A model generated the notes under the pieces. The model did not search any database and was not told where the DNA came from. It saw nothing but the letters and a program-made list of their open reading frames with translations. Below are positions 32,391 through 63,652 of a stretch of 64,000 bases of DNA, in pieces (within the stretch, counting starts at the first letter, position 1; every line of letters starts with the position of its first letter). Position numbers and translations under genes: made by a program. Source of the DNA: Arthrobacter alpinus (lineage in GTDB: Bacteria; Actinomycetota; Actinomycetes; Actinomycetales; Micrococcaceae); contig NZ_CP013200.1 of NCBI RefSeq assembly GCF_001445575.1, forward strand, positions 3,410,001 to 3,474,000, read 5' to 3'.

Positions 32391-33701
32391 ATGAGCGCTT
32401 TGCACCTTGCCGCGGTGAATGGCATTGTCGGTGCGCCGAACGGTGACTTGGCAGCTATTCTTTACAGCATGCCCACTCCCCTGCTGAGCGAATCCACCCT
32501 CTTACTCATTACCGCCATCGCCGTGGTCGTGGCTGCTGCGGCCGTGGTGGCAGCAGTGGGCTTCCGGCTCTCAAGTTCGCACCGGGAACTTGGCACCGAG
32601 GCTGAGCACGCCACCTTCGCGGCGCTCCATTCAGCTGCCGCAGCCGGCGAACAGCTAAGAAACGGACTTGAGCCAGCGGGCGCTCTGAAGGCGAGCAAGC
32701 AGCTACGAACGCTGCTCAATTGTGCAGCCTTCGCGATGACCGACGACGCCCGTCTCTTGGCCTGGGATGGCACCGGCGCCGCGGCCAGGCAACCCGAGTC
32801 CGACGTCGTCATGGGCATTGTGGCGAAAGCGCTCAGCAATGGCAGGACTCAGGTAGCCAACCTGGACCAGCCCCTACGCGTTGCCCTTGGCCTGGCACCG
32901 GACAGTGATCTGAAGGCTGCCGTCATTTGCCCGCTCAAGGTTGATTCCCGGGCCGTCGGGTGCGTCATGATCCTGTCAAAGTCACCCACAGCCGGTCTGG
33001 TGCGCGCAACGAATGAAGTGGCGGCCTGGGTCTCAGCTCAGCTGGAATTGGTTGAGCTGAGCGCCTCGCGGACGTTGCTTGCCGAAGCGGAAGTACGCGC
33101 CCTCCGCGCCCAAATCAGCCCGCATTTCATCTACAACTCGCTCAACGCCATCGCCTCTTTCATCAACACCGATCCGCAGCGAGCCAGGGACCTGGTGGTG
33201 GAGTTCGCCGACTTTACCCGTTACTCGTTCCGCCGCCACGGGGACTTCACCACCCTGGCCGAAGAACTCCGCTGCATTGACAGGTACCTGCTGCTGGAAA
33301 ATGCCCGGTTCGGTGACCGGCTCCAGGTCAGCTTGCAAATTGCCCCCGAGGTCCTGAGCACAGTCATCCCGTTCCTGAGCCTGCAGCCCCTCGTGGAGAA
33401 CGCGGTCCGGCACGGGCTCGAGGCCAAGGTGGGCAAGGGCTTGGTGCAGATCAGTGCCAGGGATCTGGGCGCCTACACCGAGGTTACTATCGAGGACGAC
33501 GGCGTGGGGATGGACCCCGAACAACTGCGGCTCGTTTTGGCGGGGCGCCACGATGGGACGCACGTGGGACTGCGCAATGTGGACTCGCGCTTGCGCCAGG
33601 TCTACGGAGATGACCATGGGCTCACCATCGACACCGGCGTGGGGCACGGCATGCTCATCACCATGACCGTCCCGAAGAACCAGCCAGGCAATGACGCCTA
33701 G
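32391..33701 (+). CDS. LytS-type sensor histidine kinase with GAF-like domain
   Basis: A 436-residue kinase. One membrane segment lies near 37-60, then a GAF-like sensor domain (about 100-220, LLNCAAFAMTDDARLLAWDG), then the His_kinase dimer domain with the phosphorylated His245 in ISPHFIYNSLNAIASF and the HATPase block VENAVRHGLEAK and IEDDGVGMDP. Start ATG 32391 has AGG eight bases upstream; a GTG at 32373 is possible. It is divergent from the acetate symporter and followed by its response regulator. The sensor signal may be acetate or pyruvate by analogy with BtsSR and LytST. Confidence 0.88.
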   Translation: MSALHLAAVNGIVGAPNGDLAAILYSMPTPLLSESTLLLITAIAVVVAAAAVVAAVGFRLSSSHRELGTEAEHATFAALHSAAAAGEQLRNGLEPAGALKASKQLRTLLNCAAFAMTDDARLLAWDGTGAAARQPESDVVMGIVAKALSNGRTQVANLDQPLRVALGLAPDSDLKAAVICPLKVDSRAVGCVMILSKSPTAGLVRATNEVAAWVSAQLELVELSASRTLLAEAEVRALRAQISPHFIYNSLNAIASFINTDPQRARDLVVEFADFTRYSFRRHGDFTTLAEELRCIDRYLLLENARFGDRLQVSLQIAPEVLSTVIPFLSLQPLVENAVRHGLEAKVGKGLVQISARDLGAYTEVTIEDDGVGMDPEQLRLVLAGRHDGTHVGLRNVDSRLRQVYGDDHGLTIDTGVGHGMLITMTVPKNQPGNDA

Positions 33702-33710
33702 GGCTTGACA

Positions 33711-33856
33711 GCTCGCAAGCTCGCGCTGGGGCCCTCCTCCGTTAGCGCCTAACCTCCTCCCACCGCTCGCAAGCTCGCGCTGGGGCCCTCCTCCGTTAGC
33801 GCCTAACCTCCTCCCACCGCTCGCAAGCTCGCGTTGCGGCCCTCGGAGGTTAGGCT
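33711..33856. repeat. 54-bp tandem repeat, 2.7 copies, between kinase and regulator genes
   Basis: Copies 33711-33764 and 33765-33818 are identical, and a third partial copy runs from 33819 to about 33856. Each unit starts GCTCGCAAGCTCGCG, contains GGGGCCCTCCTCCG and ends GCGCCTAACCTCCTCCCACC. The last copy ends in GGAGGTTAGGC, the complement of the unit's own AACCTCC, so a hairpin can form there and may cover the ribosome site of the next gene. GGGGCCC and GCTCGC are also parts of family A repeats. Confidence 0.85.
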
Positions 33857-33863
33857 TAGCCCC

Positions 33864-34592
33864 ATGATTAATGTCCTGGTCGCCGATGACGAGTTGCCCG
33901 CGGTGGAAGAGTTGGCGTTTCTTTTGGGTCGCGACCCACGGATAGGCACCATTCACCGGGCCATGAGCGGTGCCGCAGCGTTGGCGCTGCTGGCCGTACA
34001 TACTGTCGACGCGGTGTTCCTGGACATTCACATGCCAGGGCTCTCTGGGCTGGAGTTGGCAGAGGTGATTGGCCGGGGAAGCAACCCACCCGTCGTCGTG
34101 TTTGTGACCGCCGACGACGACCGGGCTCTGGAAGCCTTCGAACTGGCCGCCGTAGATTACCTCCTCAAACCACTGCGGACCGAACGGTTGACCCGCACCG
34201 TGGACCGGGTGGTGGAGCTGGTTGCCCACCCCGCAGTGGCTGCCGAAGACGTGGAGATGATCACCGTGGATCAAGGTGGCATCAGCCGGATCATCAGGCT
34301 CGACGAGGTCAAGTTTGTTCAGGCTCAGGGCGACTACGCCCGGTTGCACACGGCCGAAGCCAGCTACCTCATCCGTGTCCCGTTGACAGATTTGGAATTA
34401 CGCTGGGCCGACTCTGGATTTGTCCGCATCCACCGCTCCTATCTGGTGTGCATGGCGTTTGTCACTGCGTTGAAGCTCAGCGCTGCCAAACCAACAGTGT
34501 CGGTGGGCAACGCGGTTCTGCCCGTCAGCCGCAGGCATGTGCCAGTATTGCGCGAACATTTACAGGCCACCCGCGTGCGGCCGGCACCGTGA
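33864..34592 (+). CDS. LytTR-type response regulator
   Basis: A 242-residue regulator: receiver domain with DDE at 8-10 and the phosphorylated Asp54 in FLDIHMPGLSG, the switch Lys in DYLLKPLR, and a C-terminal LytTR DNA-binding domain (FVQAQGDYARLHT, RIHRSYLV). ATG 33864 (MINVLVADDEL) is preferred over a TTG in the repeat. It follows the kinase gene across the tandem repeat and overlaps the next gene. It probably activates one or both symporters. Confidence 0.9.
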   Translation: MINVLVADDELPAVEELAFLLGRDPRIGTIHRAMSGAAALALLAVHTVDAVFLDIHMPGLSGLELAEVIGRGSNPPVVVFVTADDDRALEAFELAAVDYLLKPLRTERLTRTVDRVVELVAHPAVAAEDVEMITVDQGGISRIIRLDEVKFVQAQGDYARLHTAEASYLIRVPLTDLELRWADSGFVRIHRSYLVCMAFVTALKLSAAKPTVSVGNAVLPVSRRHVPVLREHLQATRVRPAP

Positions 34593-50791: not shown

Positions 50792-50797
50792 GAATGG

Positions 50798-50870
50798 CTC
50801 CCCCACCTGGACTTGAACCAGGAACCTTTCGATTAACAGTCGAACGCTCTGCCAATTGAGCTATAGGGGA
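50798..50870 (-). tRNA. tRNA-Asn (GTT)
   Basis: A 73-base cloverleaf: acceptor TCCCCTA pairing with TGGGGGA, D-arm AGCTCAATTGGCAGAGC, anticodon loop CTGTTAA (GTT), T-arm GGTTCAAGTCC, discriminator G. CCA is not encoded. It is identical to the copy at 51001-51073. Confidence 0.96.
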
Positions 50871-50953
50871 ATGCGGCAAGTAAATCTTAGCAGTAACAAT
50901 CAGTTCAAATCAAATTAGATCAAAACCGATCATTTCCACACACTCAACACAAT

Positions 50954-50989
50954 AATTGTCTCCGGCCCACATCGGGGCCGGAGACAATT
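50954..50989 (-). terminator. Terminator between the two tRNA-Asn genes
   Basis: AATTGTCTCCGGCC pairs with GGCCGGAGACAATT around an eight-base loop; ATTATTG follows on the minus strand. It lies 12 bases after the upstream tRNA-Asn. Confidence 0.8.
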
Positions 50990-51000
50990 TATTGCCTTGG

Positions 51001-51073
51001 CTCCCCCACCTGGACTTGAACCAGGAACCTTTCGATTAACAGTCGAACGCTCTGCCAATTGAGCTATAGGGGA
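51001..51073 (-). tRNA. tRNA-Asn (GTT), second copy
   Basis: Identical over 73 bases to the gene at 50798-50870. Both lie in the same direction with their own terminators, so this is a recent or concerted tandem duplication. Confidence 0.96.
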
Positions 51074-54801: not shown

Positions 54802-54893
54802 AAATCCCAGTTTAGGGCCAACACAACACCATGCGGGGACGTTCCCCACAGGCAGGCCGTAGCATCAGCACCCCCGCGGGACTGCTGCGGGAC

Positions 54894-55036
54894 TGGGCCC
54901 ACGGGATCGAGGGCCCACGGCCTGCTCGCTCAGCGAGCCGGGCATGGGGAGAGCCTGGGTGGGCCCACAGGCTCGAGGGGCCCCACGGCCTGCTCGCTCA
55001 GCGAGCCGGGCATGGGGAGAGCCTGGGGACTATCCG
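54894..55036 (-). repeat. Family A 3'-UTR repeat, locus 2 (two tandem units)
   Basis: Two copies with a 66-base period: 54960-55036 is complete, 54894-54959 lacks the stop box. On the minus strand the complete copy begins at the dus stop (TAG 55030-55032) as TAGTCCCC, then CTCCCC, a stem with GCTCGC/GCGAGC and GCC/GGC and CCCCA/TGGGG, then GGGGCCCCTCGAG and TGGGCCCA. Same order as at 1945-2110 and 63489-63557, with other stem bases. Confidence 0.85.
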
Positions 55037-56211
55037 CCGGAGACGTCCAGTTCAGCTCCGACGAGTTCCACCTTTTGTGATCCGCTCAGGGTACGTGCAT
55101 CCAGCCAACCGGCAGGAAGTGCGGTGCGCTTGGGAGTGCCTGCACGGCCGCGAGGCCCCTCAGCGTCAACGCCGGGGTACTCCCCTGACATATCAAGCTG
55201 ATCCAGCAGTTCGCGGAGCACCTCAAGAGTGGGCACGCAGGACAGCTTGGCGCGCAGATCTCCGCCCACCACGTAGCCCTTGAAGTACCAGGCCATGTGC
55301 TTGCGGATGTCACGCAAGGCCTTGTTTTCGTCGTCGAACGTGTCAACCAACAGCTCGGCGTGACGGTACACGGCGGCGGAAACTTCAGCCATTCCGGGCT
55401 TGTGGCGGGCATCACTGCCCTCGAAAGCGTTCATCAGGTCCCCGAACAACCACGGGCGGCCCTGGCAACCGCGGCCTATCACTACGCCGTCGACGCCTGT
55501 CTGACGCACCATGGCGATGGCGTCTTCGGCACTCCAGATATCGCCGTTACCCAGGACCGGAACATCGGGGAGAGCTTCACGCAAGCGTGCAATGGCGTCC
55601 CAGTCGGCCTGGCCCGAGTAGAACTGGTTGGCGGTGCGGCCGTGCAATGCTACAGCTGCAACACCGGCGTCGCGGGCGATGCGGCCAGCTTCCAGATACG
55701 TGAGATGGTCCTCGTCGATACCCTTGCGCATCTTGATGGTCAGCGGCAGCCCACCTTTGGAGGCTTCGCGCACAGCGGTCTGAACAATGGAGGTGAACAG
55801 GTCCAACTTCCAAGGCAGCGCGGCGCCGCCTCCGCGGCGGGTCACCTTGGCGACGGGGCACCCAAAGTTCAGGTCAATATGGTCAGCGTGATCTTCCTCG
55901 ACCAGCATGCGCACGGCCTTGCCGACAGTTTCAGGGTCCACGCCGTACAGCTGGACGGAGCGGATCTGCTCATCGTCGTCGTGGCTGATGAGACGCATGG
56001 ATTCCGGGGTACGCTCCACGAGTGCGCGGGAGGTCACCATCTCGGACACGAAAACGCCGCCACCGTGCTCGCGGCACAGCCGGCGGAACGCGGTGTTGGT
56101 AATCCCGGCCATGGGGGCAAGAATCACGGGGGTGTCCACCGTAATGTTGCCGAGTTTCAGGGGCGGGAGGTCCAGTTTGGTATCGCTGGTGGGGATGTCT
56201 GTAACAGTCAC
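55030..56211 (-). CDS. dusB: tRNA-dihydrouridine synthase
   Basis: A 393-residue FMN TIM-barrel enzyme that reduces uridine in the D-loop of tRNA. LAPMAGITNTAFRRLCREHGG (in part) binds FMN, DLNFGCPVAKVTRRGGGAAL near 118-137 carries the catalytic Cys, TIKMRKGID and ALHGRTANQFYSG follow, and GRGCQGRPWLFGDL near 250 binds phosphate. The stop lies in the family A repeat. The family call is secure, the B-type is likely by neighbourhood. Confidence 0.92.
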   Translation of the reverse strand: MTVTDIPTSDTKLDLPPLKLGNITVDTPVILAPMAGITNTAFRRLCREHGGGVFVSEMVTSRALVERTPESMRLISHDDDEQIRSVQLYGVDPETVGKAVRMLVEEDHADHIDLNFGCPVAKVTRRGGGAALPWKLDLFTSIVQTAVREASKGGLPLTIKMRKGIDEDHLTYLEAGRIARDAGVAAVALHGRTANQFYSGQADWDAIARLREALPDVPVLGNGDIWSAEDAIAMVRQTGVDGVVIGRGCQGRPWLFGDLMNAFEGSDARHKPGMAEVSAAVYRHAELLVDTFDDENKALRDIRKHMAWYFKGYVVGGDLRAKLSCVPTLEVLRELLDQLDMSGEYPGVDAEGPRGRAGTPKRTALPAGWLDARTLSGSQKVELVGAELDVSGG

Positions 56212-56539: not shown

Positions 56540-57112
56540 GTGCCACGCATCTCCCCCACTAAGAAGGCCATTCTCACTGCCGCGCTGGAGCTCGGTGCAG
56601 TCCACGGTATTTCCGGGACCACCATGGATGAGGTAGCCGAGCGTGCTGGCGTGGCTAAGGGCAGTGTCTATTACAACTTTGCCTCCAAGGACAAGCTGTT
56701 CGAGGAACTGCTGACCACGGGAGTCTGTTCACTGGCCGAAACGCTAGCGGCTGCACGTGTGAGGAGTGCGGGTTTTGCCGCGATCGAGTCCATGGTTTCT
56801 GACATGCTGACCCTGATCGCCAGCAACCAGGCCCTGGCCAAACTCATGGCAGCTGAGATTTTCCGCACCGACAGGGCCTGGCAGACAACTGTGACGGGGC
56901 TGCGTCGGGAGGCCGTGACGGAGATTGGTGCAGCCCTATTGCCATTGGTCCCTGCTGGCACATCCGAGAGTAGCCGCCTCTTGATGGCCGGCGGCATCTT
57001 CGGAGCCACGCTCATGGGCGGGCTGGAATGGCTGCTGTTCAGCCCGGCAACACCCGTGGAAGAAGTCTCCGCCGCCATCCTTTTCACGTTCTCAGGGAAG
57101 CTCGCTTCTTAG
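56540..57112 (+). CDS. TetR family transcriptional regulator
   Basis: A 190-residue repressor. The helix-turn-helix is TTMDEVAERAGVAKGSVYYN (about 33-52) followed by FASKDKLFEELL; the remainder is the ligand domain. GTG 56540 has AAGGA seven bases upstream and gives PRISPTKKAILTAA, the usual start. Its target is unknown; nearest genes are dus (divergent) and mgtE (convergent). Confidence 0.9.
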   Translation: MPRISPTKKAILTAALELGAVHGISGTTMDEVAERAGVAKGSVYYNFASKDKLFEELLTTGVCSLAETLAAARVRSAGFAAIESMVSDMLTLIASNQALAKLMAAEIFRTDRAWQTTVTGLRREAVTEIGAALLPLVPAGTSESSRLLMAGGIFGATLMGGLEWLLFSPATPVEEVSAAILFTFSGKLAS

Positions 57113-57121
57113 CCCCCACAG

Positions 57122-57232
57122 ACGCTCCCTCACCTTTCGGGGTGTTTTGGGCAACGCTCCCTCACCCGAGGCTGGCACGAAGAGCCAGGTGAGGGAGCGT
57201 TGCCCAAAACACCCCATTTGGTGAGGGAGCGT
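57122..57232. repeat. Family B nested inverted repeat, locus 2
   Basis: A 111-base hairpin: left arm 57122-57166 with ACGCTCCCTCACC at both ends of a GGGGTGTTTTGGGC spacer; right arm 57188-57232 is its complement apart from a few spacer bases; a 21-base loop lies between. It sits in the convergent gap between the TetR gene and mgtE, ending ten bases before the mgtE stop. Same build as 15170-15257. Confidence 0.88.
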
Positions 57233-57241
57233 TTTCGGGGG

Positions 57242-58600
57242 TTAGAGACCCAAGATGGTGGTGGCGATCAGGAAGTAAATGATCAGCCCGGCCGCATCGA
57301 CGAACGTGGAGATGAACGGGTTGGAGAACACTGCCGGATCCGCCCGCACGGCCTTGCCCAGGAGCGGCATGAGCCCGCCAATGCTGGCTGCCATGGTGCA
57401 CACGCCCAGCAGTGTCAGGCCAATGACCCAGCCCAGTGGCGCGGAGAAGGCGAGCGTAGCGATCACGAAGCCCAGAGTTCCCAGCAGCAAACCCAGGAAT
57501 GCGCCGACGCGCACCTCGCGGGCGAAGACCTTGAGGAAATCGCGCGGACGAACATCGCCCAGTGCCAGGGCGCGGGTGATGGTGGTTGCGGCCTGGTTCC
57601 CGGTGTTGCCGCCGGTGCCGATCAGCAGCGGGATGAACAGCGAGAGCACCACCTGCTCCTCCAAGGTGGCCTGGAACGCGCCGATGACTTGGACCGTGAG
57701 TGTGGCACCCACGGCGAGCACCAGTAACCACACCACCCGGGCGCGGACAATGGAGCCCACAGGAGTGGCCAGATACGGCCGGCGTAACGGTTCGGTCCCG
57801 CCCGAGCGGGCTGCATCCTCGGTTTCGGCATCCTCGAGAATCGCCAGGGCGTCGTCCACTGTCAGGACGCCCACCAGCCGGTCTTCGGCGTCGACAATGG
57901 GCAACACCAGAATCTTGGCGTTGGCACAGTACCGCGCAGCTTCCTCCACATCTTCGCTGGCAGGAAAGCTCAGCGGTTCCTTCATGATGCTGGCAACCAA
58001 GGCCGAATCATCGGCTCGCAACACATCACGCAGAGACACCACACCCACCAGATGCCGGCCGGTGTCAGTCACCGGAATGGTGTAAACACTCTCCGCGTCA
58101 TCGAGCTGAGAACGCACGCGGGCAAACGTCTGCGCCACGGTCAGGTGCGGATGAGTGGTGACAAACTCCGGGCTCATGTACCGGCCAACGGCACCTTGGG
58201 CGTAGCCCAACACGGTGCTGGTCAGCGCCCGCTCCTTCTCGTCGAGCCCGGAAATGAGTCGGTGCGCTACGGTAGCGGGAAGCTCATCGAGCAGCGCCAC
58301 CCGATCATCAGGGCTCAACTGCGCAAAAACTTCGGCAACTTCAGCTTCCTTCAGACCTGTCACAAGGTCTGCCTGCAAGGCGGCACCGAGGCGCTCAAAC
58401 ACCTCAACGGCACGGCCCTTGGGCAGCGTGCGGTAGGCCAGCGCCCGCTCAATGGTGGTGAGCCTTTCCAGCTGTTCCAAGGTCTCGGCCGTATTCAAGG
58501 GCAAGAGCGCCTTGGAAATGGCAGCCAGATCCTGCTGGCTCAATGCGCGGCTCAGCAGCTCTGCGCTGTCCTCAAAAGTCTGAACTGGGTACTTGATCAT
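57242..58600 (-). CDS. mgtE: Magnesium transporter MgtE
   Basis: A 452-residue Mg2+ channel. The N domain covers about 10-130 (SAELLSRALSQQDLAAISKALL, in parts), two CBS domains follow (130-260, VYTIPVTDTGRHLVGVVSL and VLPIVDAEDRLVGVLTVDDA, in parts), then five membrane segments with the pore motif GTGGNTGNQA near 337-346. ATG 58600 with GGAGGG nine bases before it is chosen over an earlier start. The leader upstream may regulate it. Confidence 0.93.
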   Translation of the reverse strand: MIKYPVQTFEDSAELLSRALSQQDLAAISKALLPLNTAETLEQLERLTTIERALAYRTLPKGRAVEVFERLGAALQADLVTGLKEAEVAEVFAQLSPDDRVALLDELPATVAHRLISGLDEKERALTSTVLGYAQGAVGRYMSPEFVTTHPHLTVAQTFARVRSQLDDAESVYTIPVTDTGRHLVGVVSLRDVLRADDSALVASIMKEPLSFPASEDVEEAARYCANAKILVLPIVDAEDRLVGVLTVDDALAILEDAETEDAARSGGTEPLRRPYLATPVGSIVRARVVWLLVLAVGATLTVQVIGAFQATLEEQVVLSLFIPLLIGTGGNTGNQAATTITRALALGDVRPRDFLKVFAREVRVGAFLGLLLGTLGFVIATLAFSAPLGWVIGLTLLGVCTMAASIGGLMPLLGKAVRADPAVFSNPFISTFVDAAGLIIYFLIATTILGL

Positions 58601-61042: not shown

Positions 61043-62183
61043 CGTCATCGTAGTCGGCGCCGGGCCCGTGGGATTGTTCCTCGGCGCGCTCCTGCTCCAA
61101 GAGGGTCTCACCGTGCGGATTCTGGAACAGCGCACCGGCCCAAGCACTCATTCACGCGCCATTGGCATCCATCCGCCGGCACTGGCGGCGTTGGATGCGG
61201 CGGGCGTAGCGGAGGCCATGATGACCGAGGGCGTGCAGATTGGCCTCGGCATCGCCCGCAGCACCGGGGCCGAAGTGGCCAGACTGTCTTTCGCGAACCT
61301 TTCCTCCCGGTATCCCTTCGTGCTGGCGCTCCCCCAAGCCCGCACGGAAGCGCTGCTGGAGGCGCGGGTCCGTGCGCTCGATCCCTCAGCTCTCGTCCGT
61401 AGTTTCTGCGTAACAGACATGCACGACGGCGGCACTTTCGTCACGCTCTCCGGCTCGCTTTCCGAGGCGTCAGCTGCCACGCATTTTCAAGCCCGTCTGG
61501 TGGTGGGTGCCGACGGTGCACGCTCGGTGGTTCGCAGATTGTTGGGCATCCCTACGAGCGGTCGTGACTATCCAGACACGTATCTGATGGGCGATTTTCC
61601 GGACACAGGAACAGACGGTTCGGCCGCCATTCTCTATCTGGAGCCGGCCGGGATCCTCGAGTCATTTCCACTACCCGGCGGGCTGCGCCGGTGGGTGGCA
61701 CACACTGATTCGCTGCAAGAAGACGCCACCGCAGCTGAGCTAGCCACTATGATCAGCGAACGCAGTGGAGCACGTGTGGATGCTGGCGCTAACAGCATGC
61801 TCAGCGCCTTTGGTGTCCGGACCCGGCTGGCCCGGCACATGGTTGCAGGCAGAGTGGCGTTGGTGGGCGATGCCGCGCATGAAATCAGCCCCATTGGCGG
61901 GCAAGGCATGAATCTGGGATGGCTCGATGCGCTCGATCTGGCACCCATTGTGGTGGCAGCCCTCCAAGGCAAGCGAACCGGGACACGGCTGGCAGCGTTT
62001 GAGCGGAAACGGATGCGCGCCGCCCACACGGCGGCACGCCAAGCGCACCTGAACATGGCGCTGGGACGCAAGGCCCCGGCGTCGTACCTTCAAAAGCGCA
62101 ACGCAGTGCTGCGCCGAGTAATGGGGCTAGACGCCGTCCAAAACCTTGTGGCCCGCCGCTTCACCATGCACAGCATCCGGTGA
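61035..62183 (+). CDS. FAD-dependent monooxygenase (UbiH/PHBH family)
   Basis: A 382-residue flavoprotein. GAGPVG at 8-13 binds FAD, VVGADGARSVVRRL near 155 is the DG motif, and ALVGDAAHEISPIGGQGMNLG near 277-297 is the GD motif. It would hydroxylate an aromatic ring with NAD(P)H and O2. ATG 61035 overlaps the methyltransferase stop by eight bases. It fills the role of SrsC in phenolic lipid operons. The 3' end overlaps the convergent YibE/F gene by 57 bases. Confidence 0.92.
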   Translation: MFDVIVVGAGPVGLFLGALLLQEGLTVRILEQRTGPSTHSRAIGIHPPALAALDAAGVAEAMMTEGVQIGLGIARSTGAEVARLSFANLSSRYPFVLALPQARTEALLEARVRALDPSALVRSFCVTDMHDGGTFVTLSGSLSEASAATHFQARLVVGADGARSVVRRLLGIPTSGRDYPDTYLMGDFPDTGTDGSAAILYLEPAGILESFPLPGGLRRWVAHTDSLQEDATAAELATMISERSGARVDAGANSMLSAFGVRTRLARHMVAGRVALVGDAAHEISPIGGQGMNLGWLDALDLAPIVVAALQGKRTGTRLAAFERKRMRAAHTAARQAHLNMALGRKAPASYLQKRNAVLRRVMGLDAVQNLVARRFTMHSIR

Positions 62184-63434
62184 ATCCTGAACCGATCGAG
62201 CCTGAGGCCGGCCGGTGGCCTTGACCACGGCAACCGCCACCGCCGTGGTGACCGGGATGGCCAGGACCAACCCGATGGAGCCGACCAGGATGCGCACAAT
62301 CTCCTCGGCGAGCTCGGATCCGGTGAGGGCCAGGAGGAGTTGCTGGTCGAAGAGGGACACCATGAGCAGCACCGGGATGGCGCTGCCTGCGTAGGCAAAG
62401 GCGATGGTGTAAACCGTGGAGGCGATGTGGTCGCGGCCAATGCGCATGGCCGAGGTGAACAGTTCCCGGGTGCTGGTGTTGGGCGCAAGTTCGTAGAGTT
62501 CCCACACTGCTGAGGATTGGGTGATGGTGACGTCGTTGAGCACGCCCAGGCCCGAGATCACCAGGCCGCACAGGATCATGCCGGACAGTGACATCCCCTG
62601 GGTCATATTCAAGAGCTGGTAGCCGTACTCGCCCGAGTGGCCCGCCAAGGCTGCGGCATCCACCGCCCACCAGGCGAGTCCTGCCGTGACGCCGAGCCCG
62701 AACAAGGTGCCTAGCAGTGCGGTGGAGGTTCGGGCTGAGAAGCCGTGGGCAAAGTACAGCACCCCAAACATGATGGCCGATGAGCCCACTAGCGCCACCA
62801 GCATGGGTGGCTGGCCCTGCGCCAACGCCGGCAGAATGAACCAGCCCAGCACTCCGAACGCCCCGGCCAGGCCCACAATGGCCCGGAAACCACGCCAGCG
62901 TGCCACGGCCACCACCACGACGGCGTACAGCACGGCTAGCAACCCCATGGGGAAGGTCCGGACAAAGTCCATGAACACATACTGGGGGCCGTTGGCTTCC
63001 ACGCCAGTGACGGCGGACAGCCCGGAGAGGTTCAAATATCTAATGGTGTCGCCGGTGTGGACGCCACGGGTTTGCACGATGTCAGGGCTGATCAGCACCG
63101 GAATTTCTGTTTGCCCCTCCCCCTCAATGAAGGCGACAAAGCAGCTGGTCCCCGGGCTGCCGCCGGTATTGAGGGAGCAGTCTTCCGTGGCCGTGCGCAG
63201 CACCTTTCCGGAATCGATGCTTGCCCCAGGCGCGGCGGCATAGGGGTTGCCGCTCTGCGCTGGGGCAGTGCTCGCGCTGGGCCACATGAGCGCCATGGCC
63301 ACAATGGTCAGCACGGCCAGGGGCACCAGAATCCAGCTCAACAGCACCACCGCCCGGCGCCGCATCGCCTTCCGACGGCGCAACTCCGGCCGGCTCAAAG
63401 TCGATTCATCAACGTGCGAATGTGAATGGCCCAT
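62127..63434 (-). CDS. YibE/F family membrane protein
   Basis: A 435-residue protein with an N-terminal His-rich head (MGHSHSHVDES), one membrane segment near 30-50, an outside domain (60-145) and about seven membrane segments (150-410). The blocks MDFVRTFPMGLLAVLYAVVVVA and GVLNDVTITQSSAVWELYELAP (in parts) are those of the YibE/F family, of unknown function. The 3' end overlaps the monooxygenase gene. Confidence 0.9.
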   Translation of the reverse strand: MGHSHSHVDESTLSRPELRRRKAMRRRAVVLLSWILVPLAVLTIVAMALMWPSASTAPAQSGNPYAAAPGASIDSGKVLRTATEDCSLNTGGSPGTSCFVAFIEGEGQTEIPVLISPDIVQTRGVHTGDTIRYLNLSGLSAVTGVEANGPQYVFMDFVRTFPMGLLAVLYAVVVVAVARWRGFRAIVGLAGAFGVLGWFILPALAQGQPPMLVALVGSSAIMFGVLYFAHGFSARTSTALLGTLFGLGVTAGLAWWAVDAAALAGHSGEYGYQLLNMTQGMSLSGMILCGLVISGLGVLNDVTITQSSAVWELYELAPNTSTRELFTSAMRIGRDHIASTVYTIAFAYAGSAIPVLLMVSLFDQQLLLALTGSELAEEIVRILVGSIGLVLAIPVTTAVAVAVVKATGRPQARSVQDSPDAVHGEAAGHKVLDGV

Positions 63435-63488
63435 GGGCTGCGATCAGTCCTTGTGGTTGTGTTCAGTTGCGGCTCGCCATTTTCCGGC

Positions 63489-63557
63489 TGGGCCCACAAG
63501 CGCGAGGGCCCCGCTGCGAGCTTGCGAGTAGCGGGAGTGCTTGGGGACTATCCGACG
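63489..63557 (-). repeat. Family A 3'-UTR repeat, locus 3
   Basis: On the minus strand TAGTCCCC (from 63550), then CTCCC, a stem CCCGCT/AGCGGG around CTCGCAAGCTCGC, then GGGGCCCTCG and TGGGCCCA. The order and spacing match the loci at 1945-2110 and 54894-55036. A short open frame ends at its TAG. Confidence 0.8.
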
Positions 63558-63652
63558 CGTCGGCCGCGGGCGGCCTTGGGCGTCTCCTTTACGTCGCCTA
63601 CAAAAAATGACGGATCCGCCGCCGACCCAGCGGACTCAGCGTTGGTGCGCAC
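63548..63652 (-). CDS. Possible short protein or gene remnant ending in the family A box
   Basis: 34 codons from GTG, ending FVGDVKETPKAARGRRVG and then TAG at 63548-63550. At the two other loci that TAG is the stop of a real gene, which lends this frame some weight. There is no ribosome site and an in-frame stop lies just upstream. It may be the remains of a C-terminus. Confidence 0.25.
   Translation of the reverse strand: MRTNAESAGSAADPSFFVGDVKETPKAARGRRVG

Follow-up and report, generated by a model that had tools for sequence, protein, structure and literature searches.

Three loci in a 64,000-nucleotide stretch of the Arthrobacter alpinus genome (hereafter, the window) were originally predicted to carry a structured repeat of which a TAG stop codon forms the first triplet, raising the question of what kind of element starts exactly where a reading frame ends. 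Read on the minus strand of the window, the element has the order stop-TCCCC-n5-CTCCC-hairpin-GGGnCCCTCG-n5′-GTGGGCCCA and is mostly 58–70 bp long. It comprises two stacked helices, with n5 and n5′ as the arms of the outer one and CCCTC as a fixed one-sided bulge between the two. At all three loci, TAGTCCCC (2105–2098, 55032–55025 and 63550–63543, minus strand) is followed by n5, CTCCC, the hairpin, GGGGCCC(C), TCG plus n5′, and GTGGGCCCA. The predicted order of parts was thereby confirmed, except that the stretch described as "TCGAG or a variant" really is the outer-helix arm pairing with n5, which had been missed. The outer arms (the five bases after TCCCC and the five before GTGGG) read GATCT/AGATC at 2103, AGGCT/AGCCT at 55030 and AAGCA/CGCTT at 63548.

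The copy at 54960–55029 (minus; 57.0 bits, E 5.1e-10 with a covariance model) lies at distance 0 behind the TAG stop (55030–55032) of a dihydrouridine synthase (dus) gene on the same strand (55030–56211; 394-codon frame; Pfam PF01207, E 1.1e-86). Its 5′ side consists of TCCCC (55029–55025), n5 AGGCT (55024–55020) and CTCCC (55019–55015), then the hairpin, and its 3′ side of CCTCG (54978–54974), n5′ AGCCT (54973–54969) and GTGGGCCCA (54968–54960). A decayed tandem copy of the same element occupies 54894–54950 (minus; covariance model E 0.0037; 98% in a repeat search of the window). The second full copy, of the long-hairpin class (2034–2102, minus; 60.6 bits), likewise directly abuts a TAG (2103–2105, minus), which closes a 143-codon open frame and ends a small ORF (2103–2510, minus; 135 aa, no Pfam family); an additional 3′ arm, CCTCG-GGCGT-GTGGGCCCA, lies downstream of it (1970–1988, minus; host genome 3411970–3411988). 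The third, of the short-hairpin class (63489–63547, minus; 72.8 bits), is located 54 bases upstream of a YibE/F gene (62127–63434, minus). The TAG before it (63548–63550, minus) closes a 36-codon frame only and doubles as the final triplet of a second dispersed repeat; it is not a demonstrated gene stop, and the claim of a stop codon as first triplet holds for two of the three window loci.

This other repeat (TTTTTGTAGGCGACGTAAAGGAGACGCCnAAGGCCGCCCGCGGCCGACG...GGATAG; 63551–63605, minus) also occurs in L216, L246, L193, L169 and L151, and in both the window and L216 the hairpin element begins right after its final GGATAG. Further repeats in the window are a large inverted repeat at 57110–57244, with 57-nt arms containing GCTCCCTCACC motifs (similar GCTCCCTCA motifs are present in L056), and, at 50795–51073, a pair of 76-bp stretches bearing tRNA genes, identical in sequence and 203 bp apart.

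RNA folding gave –47.6 kcal/mol for 2033–2106 (z –7.4 vs. shuffles) and –43.4 kcal/mol for 54958–55033 (z –3.3). The tandem copy (54888–54960; –33.2 kcal/mol, z –1.6) and the third locus (63487–63551; –23.5 kcal/mol, z –0.8) were no stabler than shuffles, as would be the case if the copies resembled each other merely as GC-rich hairpins do by chance. As two of the four folds are ordinary for their composition, stability alone would not carry the structure claim. The strong evidence for the fold is covariation over 94 copies, which remained after removing three of odd length from 97 picked by their flanks, not by pairing, with at most five per n5. Standard pairs filled 90.1% of 1592 cells in this alignment vs. 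67.1% in shuffles, double-sided changes 371 vs. 133 cells, and the covariation score was 0.508 vs. 0.111 (slid controls, 0.042–0.090). None of 500 shuffles was as high on any of these three measures, a rank that is not a probability, the shuffle preserving column make-up and not relatedness. Counts of doubly changed pairs (487/500 shuffles as high) and of pair types (130/500) showed no excess over shuffles. Kept flanks around covarying stems, as originally predicted, are thus borne out, and the alignment displays the covariation of a structured RNA element. At gathering score, an Rfam search of the window returned three tRNA matches only; in E-value mode, none of the nine matches within 54850–55060 reached its gathering score (best E 0.043).

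Genome-wide, the family is far larger than the three loci first noticed, and two of the refuting conditions set out at the start, a lack of further copies and a lack of covariation, did not hold. The covariance model found at least 104 matches in the host at E ≤ 0.001, arranged in 78 clusters; this is a lower bound, with 150 of 4190 candidates scored. It recovered the three full window copies at E 2.4e-13 to 5.1e-10, values that are not independent, these copies being among the 94 that built the model. Pattern counts with reversed-pattern controls are independent of the model. The core CTCCC-N12..40-GGGnCCCTCG matched 106 times in the host (some matches overlapping) vs. once for the reversed pattern, and CCTCG-n5-GTGGGCCCA, with up to two mismatches, 237 vs. 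69 times. TAGTCCCC-n5-CTCCC occurred exactly 23 times; the 127 vs. 86 matches with up to two mismatches, TAATCCCC and TGATCCCC among the mismatched forms, are weak evidence, and a pattern whose variable stretch is cut from five bases to four misses the family. Tandem arrays with a period of 54–56 were found, for instance, at 3820576, 3992515 and 3998390, the first (3820576–3820818) holding five units of period 56. The element thus is a short palindrome in many copies and mostly intergenic (as assessed from mechanical ORFs), as REPs in general are, and the mobile palindromic unit listed among the original options was a sound one.

A sister family is represented in the window by a three-unit array on the plus strand (33708–33869), which shares the core CTCCC-hairpin-GG.CCCTC and has different outer arms. 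The covariance model matched it at 33802–33858 (E 4.5e-05) and 33758–33790 (E 0.0008), both on the plus strand. Its 54-bp tandem units, with outer arms GCCTAACCTC/GAGGTTAGGC, lie shortly behind a TAG at 33699–33701.

Beyond the host, the exact pattern was present in 83 of 395 Micrococcaceae genomes, spanning 6 of 32 genera, with zero matches for the reversed pattern throughout. All 23 same-genus genomes, host included, carry 1–49 copies each. At least 114 stretches of a named sequence collection contain the element, and the titles among those listed refer to Arthrobacter, Specibacter, Pseudarthrobacter, one Paenarthrobacter and one Psychromicrobium. Three scaffolds of one assembly named Sporosarcina beigongshangi (L091, L123, L174) also carry it, probably owing to Arthrobacter contamination of that assembly. 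A model search at the level of the order, run with stricter filters that lose weak matches, found the element in 3 of 79 genomes, all from the host's family, and in none of 73 genomes outside it; three further family genomes had no match either. A phage-borne origin was rejected, a viral contig collection yielding 0 exact matches. In the open-access literature, as judged by titles and abstract beginnings, we did not recognize the family, which may be in print elsewhere. The available part of PMC12306157 gives REP-like counts by RepRanger for Arthrobacter livingstonensis, a member of the same broad bacterial group; these are counts of generic palindromes, for which that part names no family, architecture or stop contact.

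Taken with the covariation, the core-pattern count and the family-wide exact-pattern count with its empty control refute chance similarity; neither the two ordinary folds nor the poorly discriminating loose pattern leaves it more than a negligible probability.

How tight, then, is the contact with stop codons? In 33 of the 78 host clusters, the element starts at the base immediately following an in-frame stop whose open frame spans at least 60 codons, compared to an expectation at distance 0 of 0.0041 per position, or 0.32 in total (determined mechanically on the same sequences). Summed over every other distance between –20 and 100, such stops numbered 58, with a maximum of three at any single distance, and the remaining 45 clusters have no stop of this kind immediately before them. 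Among the first 80 of at least 114 named loci, the exact copy followed a stop triplet in 45, of which 37 had ≥60 open codons. Stop types at the 32 host loci of the orthologue comparison (see below) were TAG (20), TAA (6) and TGA (6). TAG is enriched, both at gene ends with the element compared to those without (35/59 vs. 14/45, p 0.006) and at host anchored ends compared to background (20/32 vs. 257/685, p 0.008). A pure TAG target as sole cause was nevertheless rejected, since TAA- and TGA-anchored host copies are equally intact (mean bits 62.4 and 67.2, six copies each, vs. 63.0 for 21 TAG-anchored copies).

A 5′-terminal TAG on a high-copy intergenic palindrome brings to mind classical GTAG-type REPs moved by a REP-associated tyrosine transposase (RAYT). 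In the available text of PMC3733652, GTAG families are palindromes with many intergenic copies, which mostly lie 3′ of coding regions and are plausibly transcribed; their terminal TAG can act as a stop codon. The Arthrobacter element resembles the families described there in being high-copy, intergenic, palindromic and TAG-associated. Unlike them, it is longer, has two stacked helices and the fixed one-sided CCCTC bulge, and lacks the GTAG tag: the base before TAG in the 21 TAG-anchored host clusters was C in 12, A in five, T in two and G in just two. TAA and TGA are also occupied, with equally intact copies. Moreover, a search for the Y1 transposase (PF01797) gave no match in the host and matches in 1 of 18 same-genus genomes, the same search being positive in 5 of 14 control genomes; a RAYT or Y1 link was hence rejected for the host. 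We regard a GTAG-type REP as very improbable. The CGTC-tagged palindromes and RPE of PMC3733652 are dispersed palindromes likewise without a dedicated transposase, yet these differ in termini and hosts, and the available text does not name stop contact as their trait. The words Actinobacteria and Micrococc are absent from that paper.

The position of strong hairpins at gene ends, with a C-rich 5′ arm, could also suggest a transcription terminator or a Rho-linked terminator, the latter having been among the original options, and a loose scan detected no separate terminator-like hairpin within 350 bases in 25 of the 33 anchored clusters. However, a GC-rich hairpin followed by a T-run, as in intrinsic terminators, is not what we observed: only 1 of 33 anchored host clusters had TTTT no more than 15 bases from its last unit, and the predicted lack of a T-tract behind the three window copies held. 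The same loose scan, run without control, placed a terminator-like hairpin ≤350 bases downstream in the other eight clusters (most clearly at 1975299, 3133857 and 1679777), and the element therefore need not be the terminator there. With copies also found at sites other than gene ends, the element is probably not a terminator, a role we consider quite improbable.

Orthologous gene ends revealed the element as present, absent or replaced. We compared 29 anchored host genes (3 of 32 had no row) across three relatives. Of 82 matches found, 73 were fetched, leaving out the three for dus and six others that were weaker or secondary, and one row (L345) was without a readable stop, hence 72 ends. The element was carried by 27 of them (12/26 in G291, 11/27 in G202 and 4/19 in G113), after hand-correction of an automatic call of 28 with and 44 without to 27 and 45; inspection by eye identified L332, L343 and L344 as false positives and L292 and L315 as false negatives, and rows L279, L288 and L325 are doubtful. 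For dus, among 23 same-genus genomes, the element was directly behind the stop in G000, G113 and G076, in decayed form in G231 and as a possible remnant in G277; 15 genomes have other sequence there, and in three (L182, L187, L199) the stop was not located. Remnants at several sites make some absences look like losses. Where a site is shared, both helices often differ wholesale, e.g. at 1282016, with AACTG and a long hairpin in the host vs. ACGCC and a short hairpin in G291. At site 236204, G000 and G202 differ by a pair-keeping double change, the hairpin otherwise matching.

Two genomes that are 97.5–99.9% identical at shared loci, G128 and G170, differ in unit numbers as listed for these loci. 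At the loci of their 30 best matches, all copies were shared except two of G128, and no clean pair of empty and filled sites was found. At one unmatched G128 site, G170 has a remnant and then other sequence; the gene before it has what we take to be a GroEL-like end.

At one site away from stops, copies keep their pairing, too. This site is occupied by twelve copies from different assemblies; in L065, the genes on its two sides, which are divergent, encode ClpS (PF02617) and nicotinate phosphoribosyltransferase (NAPRTase; PF17767). Their arms (ACCGG/CCGG(C or A), ACTGG/CCAGT, ACCCG/CGGGC and GGCGG/CCGCC) retain the inner four pairs in 12 of 12 copies with three double changes; at the outermost position, nine copies have A.C, one has A.A and two are paired.

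By eye, elements seem nested inside hairpins of related elements in L085, L102 and L077—in L102, the hairpin enclosing the copy belongs to a related element whose outer arms differ—which suggests a preference for hairpin tips. Several non-stop copies (G000:C1 1277311, 51998, 488285 and 3644184, and L365) directly follow sequence resembling GCCGTCGT, possibly the 3′ arm of a conventional terminator hairpin.

The type of mismatch bears on the strand at which pairing is maintained. Over 127 non-redundant copies, counting positions that the search pattern leaves free and excluding two columns in which A.C was the commonest mismatch (57 and 33 of 127), A.C outnumbered G.U 54 to 23 (p 0.0005); for the outer helix alone, the difference was not significant (22 vs. 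12, p 0.12). The reverse was seen for 52 intrinsic terminators from the fetched sequences (A.C 12 vs. G.U 21), and the element thus lacks a preference for G.U over A.C on the transcribed strand. An A.C on the sense strand is a G.T on the opposite one, and the bias moderately favors either maintenance at the DNA level or pairing that counts on the gene's antisense strand. Replication-strand mutation was rejected as the source of A.C, the excess being seen in both host orientations (22 vs. 8 and 10 vs. 2; replichore borders guessed from a weak GC skew). So was an antisense transcript from a convergent neighbor, as 23 of 33 anchored clusters are followed by an ORF running in the same direction (mechanical ORF choice).

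Anchored copies are better paired than others (682/744 vs. 666/780 cells, p 0.00015), favoring either a function at the stop or a younger age. This speaks for the originally proposed 3′-UTR RNA function, which as a purely RNA-level role is otherwise less well supported. As an RNA element selected for its fold, the repeat would present a stop-abutting helix that is masked by the ribosome and otherwise closed, and would stabilize the mRNA 3′ end or tune termination and ribosome release. Zero spacing after all three stop types, the sense orientation and the pair-keeping double change at 236204 are consistent with this. Where E. coli REPs lie no more than 15 nt from a stop, a possible effect on the ribosome, namely stalling, is reported in the available part of PMC12306157 (citing Liang, Rudd and Deutscher 2015). 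The Arthrobacter element shares with these a strong hairpin just behind the stop, but differs in sequence and host, and in 33 of 78 host clusters leaves no gap at all instead of covering a range of distances. On the other hand, more than half of the clusters (45/78) lack a stop with at least 60 open codons immediately before them, pairing is maintained between the divergent ClpS and NAPRTase genes, the A.C bias is the reverse of that in terminators, and just 27 of the 72 ends compared carry the element. A switch to the alternative hairpin GGnCCC/GGGCCC was rejected: that hairpin shows no covariation, and one particular pair of its six is broken in 66 of 94 copies. An RNA element is thus conceivable, if doubtful, and as sole function of the repeat it conflicts with the off-stop copies, the ClpS site and the mismatch bias.

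We consider it likely that the element is a REP/MITE-like repeat of Micrococcaceae: palindromic, non-coding, built of two helices, present in many copies and preferentially kept at the base after a stop codon. Its outer arms form an inverted repeat, and the sites compared included no clean empty one from which a target-site duplication could be read. Such a repeat would spread and turn over as a small mobile DNA unit whose copies presumably move and may expand into tandem arrays, with the hairpin probably needed at the DNA level for spread. Contact with stops might then reflect in part a TAG-like site preference and in part selection, the latter because a stop-adjacent hairpin would do no harm or be of use. 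On the transcript, a terminating ribosome would be expected to cover the 11 nt of TCCCC-n5-C, which form the outer helix's 5′ arm, and the element could therefore modulate termination or decay, by analogy with what is reported for E. coli REPs close to stops. Counting against the mobile-repeat reading are the missing Y1 transposase (17 of 18 same-genus genomes, host included), the lack of a fresh empty/filled pair, remnants that point to loss at some sites, the better pairing of anchored copies, and the intact TAA- and TGA-anchored copies, which targeting of a DNA motif would leave unexplained. A bolder and unlikely reading is that the stop is recognized as a stop and not as a DNA word, be it through translation-coupled gain, acting at the mRNA level and specific to stops, or through the element serving as a built-in partner of termination whose masked 11-nt arm shuts on release. 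If true, this would link a repeat found throughout the genome to the terminating ribosome, something without precedent to our knowledge.

The safest statement is that of a REP-like palindromic repeat of Micrococcaceae, with turnover, arrays and preferential retention right after stop codons. At dozens of genes in several species, it adjoins the stop codon with single-base precision, be this TAG, TAA or TGA. This makes it testable how small palindromes choose or keep their sites, and whether hairpins touching a stop act on terminating ribosomes in high-GC Gram-positives. The pattern of the element and its covariance model, in turn, provide a well-defined marker for Micrococcaceae genomes.
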